Of a DNA stretch of 64,000 nucleotides, positions 13,837-16,302 are shown piece by piece. The position numbers and the translations under genes are program-made. Origin of the DNA: Nocardioides pocheonensis (GTDB lineage: Bacteria; Actinomycetota; Actinomycetes; Propionibacteriales; Nocardioidaceae); the NCBI RefSeq assembly GCF_003725535.1, contig NZ_RJSF01000044.1:148419-212418 (forward strand), written 5' to 3'. Numbering within the stretch: position 1 is the stretch's first letter; each line of letters begins with the position of its first letter. Under the pieces are notes generated by a model. The model searched no databases, was not told the DNA's origin, and saw nothing but the letters and a program-made list of their open reading frames with translations.

Positions 13837-13880
13837 TTCCACGGCTGCGCGGTCCGCCCGCGCACGCCGACGATGGAGCC

Positions 13881-14654
13881 ATGTCCCGTCGCCCCACACA
13901 GCTCGCCCTCTCCGCCGTCGCCTGGGTCGGGTTCCTCGCCATCACGGCCTGGACGATCGCGTTCCTCGCCGGCGTCCTCGTCCCGAGGACGATCGACGGC
14001 CCGGTCCGCACGACCGCACCCCGAGCCGTGGTCGTCGACCTCGCCCTGCTGCTGCTGTTCGCGCTGCAGCACTCCGTCATGGCCCGGCGGCCGGTGAAGG
14101 CCTGGCTGGGCCGCCGCATCCCCGCGGCGCTGGGGCGCACGACGTACGTGCTCGCCACCGACGTCTGCCTCGTCCTCCTGCTCGCGTCCTGGGAGCCGTG
14201 GGGCGGCCGGGTCTGGCACGTCGGCGGCCCGGCCGGGGTGCTGCTCTGGGCGCTGTACGCCGCAGGGTGGCTGCTCGCGATCGTCTCGACGTACGCCGTC
14301 GACCACCTCGAGCTCGTCGGGCTGCGCCAGGCCGGCTGGGCAGCTCCCCGCGACGCGGGCGAGGATGCCCTTCAGGTCGGCGGGCTCCATGCGGTGGTGC
14401 GCCACCCGCTGATGACGGGGCTGTTGCTGGCGTTCTGGGCGACGCCCCGGATGAGCGCGTCACACCTGCTGTTCGCGGCGGCGTCCACCGGCTACGTCGC
14501 CGTCGGGATCGCCTTCGAGGAGCGCGACCTGCGACGCACGTTCGGCAGCGCCTACGACGCGTACGCCGCCCGCGTGCCCGCACTCGTGCCCGCGCTGCGG
14601 ATCCGGCGTGGCGTGGCTCCCGGGGCGGAGCCGTCGGAGTCGTCGGTGCGCTAG
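13881..14654 (+). CDS. MddA-like methanethiol S-methyltransferase / NnrU-ICMT fold membrane protein
   Basis: 257-residue integral membrane protein with about five to six segments. The blocks LQHSVMARRPVKAWL, GRTTYVL, STYAVDHLELVGLRQ, VRHPLMTGLLLAFWATP and FEERDLRRTFGSAYDAYAARVP match the arrangement of the MddA family, which methylates methanethiol to dimethyl sulfide with S-adenosylmethionine, within the wider isoprenylcysteine-methyltransferase/NnrU fold. The R-H-P and E-E-R-D-L motifs are the cofactor-binding core. Other substrates in this fold are possible, so the specific activity is an inference. ATG at 13881, 44 bases after the hydrolase-LuxR gene. Confidence 0.7.
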   Translation: MSRRPTQLALSAVAWVGFLAITAWTIAFLAGVLVPRTIDGPVRTTAPRAVVVDLALLLLFALQHSVMARRPVKAWLGRRIPAALGRTTYVLATDVCLVLLLASWEPWGGRVWHVGGPAGVLLWALYAAGWLLAIVSTYAVDHLELVGLRQAGWAAPRDAGEDALQVGGLHAVVRHPLMTGLLLAFWATPRMSASHLLFAAASTGYVAVGIAFEERDLRRTFGSAYDAYAARVPALVPALRIRRGVAPGAEPSESSVR

Positions 14655-14679
14655 GTCATCAGAGAGCGCCAGGTCACCG

Positions 14680-14762
14680 GGTTTCGAGGCGGTTGCTGCG
14701 CAACCGCACCTCAACCAGCCATCCCGCGGTGGTTGAGGTGCGAGCCGGCGAGCCTCGCAACC
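14680..14762. repeat. Folded intergenic repeat, copy A
   Basis: Ends are inverted (GGTTTCGAGGC and GCCTCGcAACC, one mismatch). Inside are a GGTTGC-TGC-GCAACC hairpin and a GCACCTCAACCA/TGGTTGAGGTGC hairpin. The whole can fold as a three-way junction. About 20 flanking bases on the right are also shared with copy B. Confidence 0.8.
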
Positions 14763-14803
14763 ACCCACGCCCGGTCCGAGCCGGGTCTGCATCGAGGTCA
14801 CCG

Positions 14804-14883
14804 GGTTTCGAGGCGGTTGCTGCGCAACCGCACCTCAACCAGCGATCCGGCGGTTGAGGTGCGAGCCTGCGAGCCTCGAAACC
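14804..14883. repeat. Folded intergenic repeat, copy B
   Basis: Starts 124 bases after copy A. Here the end repeats are perfect (GGTTTCGAGGC/GCCTCGAAACC) and the internal GGTTGC-TGC-GCAACC hairpin is identical. It is a tandem neighbour of copy A. Confidence 0.8.
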
Positions 14884-14913
14884 ACCCGCGCCCGATCCGA
14901 GCCGCGGTGTCGC

Positions 14914-14919
14914 TACACT
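14914..14919 (+). promoter_or_regulatory. -10 element of the fluoride operon
   Basis: TACACT. Initiation about 7 bases downstream would put the transcript's 5' end almost exactly at the first stem of the fluoride riboswitch. Confidence 0.4.
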
Positions 14920-14920
14920 C

Positions 14921-15011
14921 GGCCGCGATGGCGGTGGGGCTCGCCGACAACCGCAGCGCAGCTGCCAACAGTCCCTACCTCGTGAGGTCCGGTTGCGAAG
15001 GTAGGTGCACC
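14921..15011 (+). ncRNA. Fluoride (crcB-motif) riboswitch, predicted translational
   Basis: The leader fits the crcB-motif aptamer: GCGATGG start, P1 (14925-14928 with 14941-14944), ACAACCGC, P2 (GCAGC/GCTGC, 14953-14957 with 14961-14965) and a 3' CCCTACC. The pseudoknot pairs GGGGCU (14936-14941) with AGUCCC (14970-14975), six pairs with one wobble. The same 3' strand, CCTACCT (14974-14980), pairs perfectly with AGGTAGG (14999-15005), which is the Shine-Dalgarno region 6 bases before the crcB ATG. The two folds are exclusive, so fluoride would free the ribosome site. The downstream genes are fluoride exporters. Confidence 0.85.
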
Positions 15012-15557
15012 ATGTCCGATCCCCGCGCAGATTCCCGCGCAGACTCCCACCCGGCGCACGTGCCCGACCCGGTCGACCCCGACATCGACCTGCACGTGCG
15101 GGGCCAGCGCCGCGAGTGGACCGCCCACCGGTGGGTGCTGCCCGTGGTCGCGCTCGGCGGCATGCTCGGCGCGTCCGCCCGCCACGCCCTCGAGCTCACC
15201 TGGCCCGCCGGCCCGACGGCGCTGCCCTGGGCGACGCTGGTCACGAACGCCTCCGGGTGCCTGCTGATCGGCATGCTGATGGTGCAGGTCGTCGAGGTCG
15301 GCCGGGCGCACCCGCTGCTGCGTCCGTTCCTGGGCGTCGGTGTGCTCGGCGGCTACACCACCTTCTCGACGTACGCCGTGCAGACCCGCACCCTCTGGGC
15401 CCACGGCCGGCCGGGGCTGTCCCTGGTCTACCTCCTGCTCACGCCGGCCCTGGCCCTGGTGGCCGTCGCCCTCGGCGTGTTCACCGCCCGCGCCGGCCAT
15501 CGCGCGCGGGCCGCCCTGTCCCGTCGAGCGCGCTCCCGTCGCGCCGCGTCCCGTTGA
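15012..15557 (+). CDS. crcB: CrcB/FluC fluoride channel subunit, first copy
   Basis: Small membrane protein (181 aa) with four hydrophobic segments after a hydrophilic N-terminal extension of about 40 residues rich in Asp and Arg (unusual; FluC proteins are normally 110-130 aa). Family motifs: [29 protein letters not shown] and [16 protein letters not shown], which holds the fluoride-lining Phe and Thr/Ser. FluC works as a dual-topology dimer. The adjacent second crcB suggests a heterodimer. ATG at 15012 with an AAGGTAGG ribosome site that the riboswitch can mask. Confidence 0.93.
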
Positions 15558-15577
15558 GCCCAGCGAAAGGCAGCACG

Positions 15578-15928
15578 ATGACACTGACCGGAACCGCCCG
15601 TCGGCTGACCGTCTTCCTCGGCGAGGACGACACCTGGCACCACAAGCCGCTCTACACCGAGATCGTGCACCGGGCCCACCGGGCCGGGCTCGCCGGCGCC
15701 AGCGCGGTGCGCGGCATCGAGGGCTTCGGCGCAGGATCGCCCCGCGTCCACACCTCGCGGCTGCTCTCGCTGTCGGAGGACCTGCCCGTGGTGGTGGTCA
15801 TCATCGACACCCCCGAGCGGATCGACGCCTTCCTCCCGGAGATCGAGGAGGTGCTCGGCGACGGACTCGCCGTCGTCGACGACGTCGCGGTGGTCGCGCA
15901 CCGCTTCCGGCCGGCCGAGCAGCCGTGA
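15578..15928 (+). CDS. DUF190 protein in the fluoride operon
   Basis: 116-residue soluble protein of the DUF190 family (PII-like fold). It begins [18 protein letters not shown] and contains [12 protein letters not shown] and [16 protein letters not shown]190 genes are often next to crcB, so a role in regulating or assisting the fluoride channel is likely, but none is proven. It starts 20 bases after crcB and overlaps the second crcB by 4 bases (GTGA), so the three genes form one transcript under the fluoride riboswitch. Confidence 0.88.
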
Positions 15929-16302
15929 GCGACCCCGCGGCGTTCGCCTGGGTGTGTCTGGGCGCGGCCGTCGGCGCGCCGGCCCGCTACCTCACTGACC
16001 GGTTCGTGCAGGCGCGCCACGACTCGGTGATGCCCTGGGGCACGCTGACGGTCAACGTGGTCGGCTCCCTCGTGCTCGGCGTCCTGGTCGGGCTCGGCGG
16101 TCACGTGCCGGCGCAGGTGAGCCTCGCGGTCGGCACCGGGCTGTGCGGTGCGCTGACCACCTACAGCACGTTCAGCTACGAGACGCTCCGCCTGTTCGAG
16201 GAGCGTGCCCGCGGCTTCGCGGCGGCCAACGTGGTGATCAGCCTGGTCGCCGGGGTAGGCGCCGCGCTCGCCGGGTTCGGCCTCGCGTCCGTCCTGGCGT
16301 AG
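15925..16302 (+). CDS. crcB: CrcB/FluC fluoride channel subunit, second copy
   Basis: 125 aa with four membrane segments, the normal FluC length. Motifs [32 protein letters not shown] and [16 protein letters not shown] carry the conserved Asn, Thr and Phe residues of the fluoride pathway. The GTG start overlaps the DUF190 stop (GTGA), indicating translational coupling. Together with the first copy it probably forms a heterodimeric channel that lets toxic fluoride leave the cell. Confidence 0.93.

Follow-up and report, generated by a model that had tools for sequence, protein, structure and literature searches.

A lineage variant of the fluoride riboswitch aptamer with a jointly exchanged long-range base pair, predicted to control translation of a two-subunit fluoride channel operon in Actinomycetota

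In the parts of the literature drawn on here, the aptamer of the crcB-motif fluoride riboswitches (Rfam RF01734) contains a reversed Watson-Crick pair, A6-U38, and a reversed Hoogsteen pair, A40-U48 (PMC11586693). The equivalent of A6-U38 is labelled A10-U38 in Bacillus cereus (PMC10687018), U48 is numbered as the 'linchpin' in PMC11586693 and PMC8752731, and the mutation U41A abolished the response of the B. cereus switch (PMC11077080). The stem that we call P2 is named P3 in some papers. A 2026 study of covariation in RF01734 names P1, the pseudoknot and P3 as the covarying regions, and the 6/38 pair is not among the regions named in its text (PMC13273304). The text of the same study describes translational fluoride riboswitches in Pseudomonas syringae and Burkholderia pseudomallei, and reports that transcriptional ones are nearly absent from Actinomycetota (PMC13273304). 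Here we describe an aptamer of this class from a 64-kb window, by which we mean the whole stretch of DNA analysed. On comparative sequence grounds, we consider it very likely that this aptamer is part of a fluoride-responsive translational ON riboswitch for the operon of a two-subunit fluoride channel. The riboswitch class is already known; the novelty lies in the variant and in the way its positions 6 and 38 are exchanged jointly.

An earlier note on this DNA had proposed a fluoride aptamer with a six-pair pseudoknot and a P2 stem, and all of these elements were found at the place claimed (Table 1). The window aptamer has the P1, P2/P3 and H-type pseudoknot of RF01734 as well as both linchpin nucleotides, A40 and U48, and one of its six pseudoknot pairs is a G-U. 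The search with RF01734 that had been suggested as a check gave a divided answer. The full-length alignment (14921-14984) scored 22.3 bits with an E value of 0.00027 in a 211-base stretch, which is under the gathering cut-off of 34 bits, but the same aptamer was the top RF01734 match across the 4.9 Mb genome (E 0.0015). No Rfam family reached its gathering score when the whole window was searched.

Table 1 Features of the leader and the operon in the window.
Feature	Position	Strand	Comment
-10-like element TACACT	14914-14919	+	10 nt upstream of P1
crcB-motif aptamer, fluoride riboswitch class	14930-14978	+	upstream of crcB-DUF190-crcB
P1 stem-loop	14930-14945	+	GGCG 14930-14933 / CGCC 14942-14945; RF01734 alignment
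Position 6: G, not A	14934	+	long-range partner 14966
Pseudoknot 5' strand GGGGCU, positions 8-13	14936-14941	+	partner 14970-14975
P2 stem-loop GCAGC-GCA-GCUGC	14953-14965	+	GCAGC 14953-14957 / GCUGC 14961-14965
Position 38: C, not U	14966	+	partner of 14934
A40, reversed Hoogsteen partner of U48	14968	+	present in window
Position 41: C, not U	14969	+	neighbour of A40
Pseudoknot 3' strand AGUCCC, positions 42-47	14970-14975	+	RF01734 alignment, A3
Anti-SD strand CCUACCU	14974-14980	+	complementary to 14999-15005
U48, 'linchpin' partner of A40	14976	+	also part of anti-SD strand; RF01734 alignment
Shine-Dalgarno (SD) AGGUAGG	14999-15005	+	6 nt before crcB1 ATG
crcB1, Fluc subunit, 181 aa	15012-15557	+	ATG 15012; PF02537 89.2 bits
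DUF190 gene, 116 aa	15578-15928	+	PF02641 124.3 bits
crcB2, second Fluc subunit, 125 aa	15925-16302	+	PF02537 100 bits; GTG start overlaps DUF190 stop

The position numbers are those of the Thermotoga petrophila aptamer, mapped onto the window. With this numbering, the window departs from the RF01734 consensus in four letters, A6 to G, U38 to C, G39 to A and U41 to C, so that the U41 of RF01734 is absent. Those at 6, 38 and 41, which make the aptamer a variant, had escaped the earlier note. Since A6 and U38 are partners in the literature, two of these changes sit on two paired positions. We attribute the low Rfam score to a lineage variant with G6-C38 in place of A6-U38 and C41 in place of U41.

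The distribution of the variant was examined in related genomes. In the family, 30 of 341 genomes carry a strict variant pattern, with 31 copies in all, and the reversed pattern, used as a control, had no match. The free letters of the pattern were nearly constant among the copies while P2 varied with compensation. A covariance model, R1, was built from 24 pattern copies with the window's own included; within the order it matched 77 of 391 genomes at E ≤ 0.001, the weakest of which are doubtful and look false by eye, and 12 of 396 genomes of the phylum at E ≤ 1e-6 (eight with G6-C38 and four with A6-U38). RF01734 exceeded its cut-off in 37 of the 391 order genomes. When 40 loci chosen for the variant were scanned with RF01734, no G6-C38 aptamer attained the cut-off; the matches that passed it in L151 and L152 were other aptamers elsewhere in the locus, the one in L152 reading A6-U38. 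Among 20 pattern loci, RF01734 gave 18.0-25.7 bits in 19 and nothing in L101, and among 20 R1 loci it gave 17.3-22.5 bits in 14, while for the remaining six no match was listed where the variant lies. In the window's genus, three of 24 genomes (G000, G004 and G008) carry the strict pattern and R1 adds G003. A CrcB match is present in 22 of the 24, and the switch is therefore patchy in the genus. Viral contigs had no match to the variant pattern, and two (L265 and L266) of the five named crcB regions examined, out of seven records, contained no aptamer. The variant was also found in Embleya sp. NBC_00888, Streptomyces nigrescens and plasmid pFRL5 of Streptomyces sp. F8. In L122, a second variant aptamer (2599-2662) follows the first by about 1.1 kb and is apparently a second unit.

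To follow individual positions, we used an alignment, A3, of 74 distinct rows from 73 loci of our own choosing, made with R1, which pairs P1 and P2 only and leaves both 6/38 and the pseudoknot columns unpaired. All five P2 pairs are altered on both sides somewhere in A3 (four of five in alignment A1). The third pair of P1 reads CG in 63 rows, UG in four and UA in three and is unpaired in four, and the fourth pair is GC in 73 and AU in one. The pseudoknot pair 13/42 is UA in 43 rows, UG in 26 and CG in five. At positions 6 and 38, which the model does not pair, there were 63 G-C rows, 11 A-U rows and no mixed row, such that none of the 74 rows leaves the long-range pair open and the window's copy of it is the G-C form. 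Thirteen of the rows lie at places found by the pattern search, where G6 and C38 were demanded; without them the counts are 50 G-C and 11 A-U in 61 rows. Shuffling the columns left 87.3% of rows paired on average, with 100% reached in none of 500 shuffles, and sliding the partner column by one to three positions from 38 gave at most 91.9% standard pairs. Since R1 was trained on G6-C38 only, single changes are cheaper for it than double ones; still, only double ones appear.

A separate parse that was blind to positions 6 and 38 led to the same picture. It yielded 97 unique parses, of which five that lay away from matches were dropped (L039, L041, two on the minus strand of L225 and one on the minus strand of L247); four of these five had other letters at 6/38, and they were the sole such parses among the 97. 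The 92 that were kept, which include pattern-search loci selected for G6 and C38, comprised 62 G-C, 30 A-U and no mixed parse. A40 was present in all 92, the parser having demanded both A40 and U48. The mutual information in this set was 0.91 bit for 6/38 compared with 0.65 for 6/39 and 0.63 for 6/41. As a control, the parser returned 10 parses in shuffled loci and three in reversed ones. Real-looking matches outside A3 (L149, L159, L187, L220, L037, L198, L200, L201, L203, L207 and L209) were read by eye as A-U in L149 and G-C in the others. A3 also omits weak matches that lack the pseudoknot and were taken as chance (L197, L204-L206, L210-L219 and all below 16 bits); in some of these, for example L197 and L205, positions 6/38 carry different letters.

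The joint exchange was also traced on a tree of the CrcB proteins. On it, positions 6 and 38 each change seven times, and always along with the other. Six independent pairs of changes fall on branches with support, and the two positions agree in all six (sign test p 0.031). Some rows of the tree are doubtful, and since it has an odd long branch of 11 rows including L091, the count of six to seven changes is approximate. The final tree has 74 rows, after 12 rows without a CrcB signature, taken as wrong-frame translations, had been replaced (11) or dropped (one). The clearest case on the tree is that of L074 and L148 next to the window's own clade, and L074, L148 and L149 carry A6-U38 within an otherwise variant scaffold. 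These results suggest that the tertiary contact between positions 6 and 38 would be kept in the variant and that fluoride binding probably is as well.

The covariation also bears on another alternative, namely that the structure is a chance hairpin in a GC-rich leader and no riboswitch at all. The sub-threshold RF01734 score and the ordinary folding energy of the whole leader (z -0.60) would agree with such a hairpin, but the conservation and covariation over 74 sequences would not. We give this alternative practically no credence; the absence of reversed-pattern matches and the covariation in A3 rule it out.

The exchange at 6/38 is accompanied by other letters. C41 is found in 63 of 63 G6-C38 rows of A3 as opposed to six of 11 A6-U38 rows, and in 62 of 62 G6-C38 parses as opposed to five of 30 A6-U38 ones. 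A39 occurs in 61 of the 63 G6-C38 rows of A3, and a G11-U44 wobble in 69 of all 74 rows. In the variant aptamers L167, L179, L191 and L199, an A replaces the U that almost all others have at position 7. A rule by which G6-C38 and U41 strictly exclude each other was considered and rejected because of L203 (1501-1553, minus strand), which reads G6, C38, A39, A40 and U41 and is short of one C between AA and P2. This aptamer scores 30.6 bits with R1 and 31.8 bits with RF01734 and is in neither counted set, having been missed by the parser and left out of A3. The link of C41 to G6-C38 is thus strong but not strict, and L203 is a possible link between the G6-C38/C41 and canonical forms. From the association of these letters we infer that C41 may favour the exchange of A-U for G-C at 6/38.

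The genes downstream of the variant bear on what it may sense. A crcB gene follows 46 of 62 G6-C38 aptamers. Ten of the remaining 16 are followed by an enolase motif, one of them confirmed by Pfam, and two more precede MFS transporters (L150 by Pfam, L151 by likeness). Enolase is a target of fluoride, and this context of crcB and enolase genes leads us to read the ligand as probably fluoride. It is conceivable instead that the form with G6-C38 and C41 has lost or changed its ligand, that it senses another companion of fluoride stress or that it has a very different set point. Such a change would give a reason for both forms to be held side by side, as they are in at least nine genomes (G376, G457, G469, G472, G477, G479, G493, G528 and G533) and on pFRL5. 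On this plasmid, the variant precedes an annotated crcB-DUF190-crcB set, with 51.6 bits by R1 and no RF01734 match at E ≤ 1 at its place, and a canonical-looking aptamer (L263:499-577; RF01734 32.3 bits, below the cut-off) lies upstream before a DUF2180 gene. C41 moreover occupies the site at which U41A was fatal in B. cereus (PMC11077080). Against a changed ligand stand the crcB and enolase genes, the retained pseudoknot, A40 and U48, and the grading of the two forms into each other, with A6-U38 joined to C41 in six of 11 A3 rows and G6-C38 joined to U41 once, in L203. We judge a changed ligand or set point of this kind to be unlikely. A related and tentative proposal, to which we lend somewhat more weight while still doubting it, is that G6-C38, nearly always with C41, may constitute a separate functional subclass of fluoride riboswitches in Actinomycetota, kept beside the canonical A6-U38 form because it differs in its set point for fluoride, its dependence on Mg2+ or the ligand that it prefers. 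L203, with its G6-C38 and U41, lowers the odds of such a subclass. As a separate observation, RF01734 matched genome G477 at nine places with E ≤ 1e-4, and eight of these cluster in about 25 kb of a single contig, contig 14 (L152, L225), where they resemble a fluoride island.

The earlier note had further claimed that CCTACCT pairs perfectly with an AGGTAGG Shine-Dalgarno (SD) sequence, and all seven pairs are indeed located as it said. In the unconstrained ensemble, the pair probability of this helix was 1.0 for six of the seven pairs and 0.5 for the seventh. That the aptamer and the helix exclude each other, as had been proposed, is true in part only: the overlap consists of 14974-14975 in the pseudoknot and the linchpin U at 14976. 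When 14936-14941 and 14970-14978 were barred from other pairing, only four of the seven SD positions became mostly unpaired and 15000-15002 paired elsewhere; as a rough proxy for the bound state, this constraint therefore opens the SD only partly. AGGTAGG occurs 14 times in the window compared with 1.6 expected, two of the 14 being in the window leader, and perhaps the excess reflects TAC-CTG codons on the other strand. Complementarity in one leader is therefore weak evidence alone, and it is the comparative evidence that carries the case.

Pairing between the anti-SD strand and the region upstream of the start codon was scored at the 46 crcB loci with G6-C38. The native mean was 7.14 as compared with 3.90 in shuffled DNA and 6.23 when the partners were swapped between loci (sd 0.11; maximum 6.51 of 200). 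The stem score was at least 6 in 40 of the 46 loci and at most 5.5 in six. Compensated SD stems were found in relatives as CCTACGTTG/CAACGTAGG, CCTACCAG/CTGGTAGG, CCTATCTC/GAGATAGG and CCTGTCTG/CAGACAGG, and in family f4 as CCTGTTGCGC/GCGCAATGGG and CCTGGTGCGT/ACGCATCAGG; no clear SD stem was seen in L168, L179 and L191. The leader has the layout of SD sequestration, in that the anti-SD strand overlaps the aptamer and the SD arm stands before the start codon. The masking of the crcB ribosome site that the earlier note suspected is backed by the relatives, both by the native score over the swapped one and by the compensated stems. On its main points, the note's reading stands.

If the fluoride-binding aptamer worked chiefly at the level of transcription, by way of Rho or a weak terminator, the SD pairing would be a by-product. 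The expression platform can indeed differ among relatives: at the f2 enolase loci, the partner arm GAGGTGGGG is followed by pyrimidines and lies far upstream of the start codon, and in L162, L163, L175 and L176 a variant aptamer stands before enolase with either GAGGTGGGG or GGTGGGG and pyrimidines as the arm. A transcriptional platform on a variant aptamer is possible at the f2 enolase loci. For the window, we regard predominant control of transcription as quite improbable, since the scan of its leader found no terminator-like site, the SD arm in crcB loci immediately precedes the start codon and varies with compensation, and the text of the 2026 study reports nearly no transcriptional fluoride variants in Actinomycetota (PMC13273304).

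The start of the transcript was considered as well. The promoter scan of the window leader found no sigma-70 consensus promoter. The leader has a -10-like box (Table 1), and among 62 G6-C38 leaders, 39 have TAnnnT ending 5-14 nt upstream of P1 while shuffles averaged 2.4 with a maximum of 7. With such a box near P1, the transcript probably begins at or just before the aptamer. We propose that transcription would start at the aptamer and that, without fluoride, CCUACCU would pair with the SD AGGUAGG as it does in silico, a pairing that would block initiation. A rise in fluoride would then probably open the ribosome site. In this translational switch, G6-C38 with C41 would take the place of A6-U38, with positions 6 and 38 exchanged jointly, much like the two partners of the tRNA Levitt pair.

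Downstream of the leader, two channel subunits and a DUF190 gene had been claimed, and the Pfam scores (Table 1) bear this out, both CrcB proteins exceeding the PF02537 cut-off of 32.9 bits. The split crcB-DUF190-crcB order is present as described but proved common in relatives. The annotations of Streptomyces sp. F8 and S. fungicidicus show it too, and we no longer treat it as unusual; DUF190 is found in 22 of 62 G6-C38 loci. Similarly, CrcB1 does have a hydrophilic N-terminal extension of about 40 residues, but its supposed rarity did not hold up because a DPDV-like motif is present in 32 of 50 CrcB proteins, the window's included. In CrcB1, this acidic motif reads like DPDIDL and is encoded at 15075-15092; the count of 32 is that of matches to a regular expression. 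The K+R-rich C-terminal tail of CrcB1 suggests an N-in/C-in topology, and the positive residues of CrcB2, in loops 1 and 3 with none N-terminal, suggest the opposite one.

In the region just upstream of the switch (14671-14904), a repeat of about 120 bp with inverted arms is present twice. The 60-nt parts of the two copies are 97% alike and the 57-nt parts 91%, and the repeat resembles a repetitive intergenic element. The gene next upstream (13872-14654) resembles that for methanethiol S-methyltransferase MddA (NF045656 235 bits, cut-off 270).

The variant amounts to a set of naturally occurring double mutants in a long-range tertiary contact assigned by crystallography, and it explains why these fluoride switches have Rfam scores that are too low for a call. 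It also allows the roles of positions 6, 38 and 41 to be tested directly and offers a compact, predicted translational fluoride switch for Streptomyces-type hosts.

Compared with RF01734, the window aptamer shares P1, P2, the six-pair pseudoknot, A40, U48 and a site before crcB, and the variant differs in G6-C38, C41, A39 and the G11-U44 wobble. Two-gene, hetero-oligomeric Fluc channels consist of subunits with opposite topologies. The window is like them in having two CrcB genes with opposite charge patterns and unlike them in the DUF190 gene that separates the two; a complex of the two proteins is putative. With the switches of P. syringae and B. pseudomallei, the likeness lies in presumed translational control; in the window, the aptamer's own 3' strand would serve as the anti-SD. 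The Levitt pair 15-48 of tRNA is usually a purine at 15 with a pyrimidine at 48 in reversed Watson-Crick geometry, in the part of the source drawn on here (PMC5372741). Although that pair belongs to another RNA, and the pair alone is compared with a presumed reversed geometry for G6-C38, the 6-38 pair is like it in being a long-range purine-pyrimidine pair that joins two domains.
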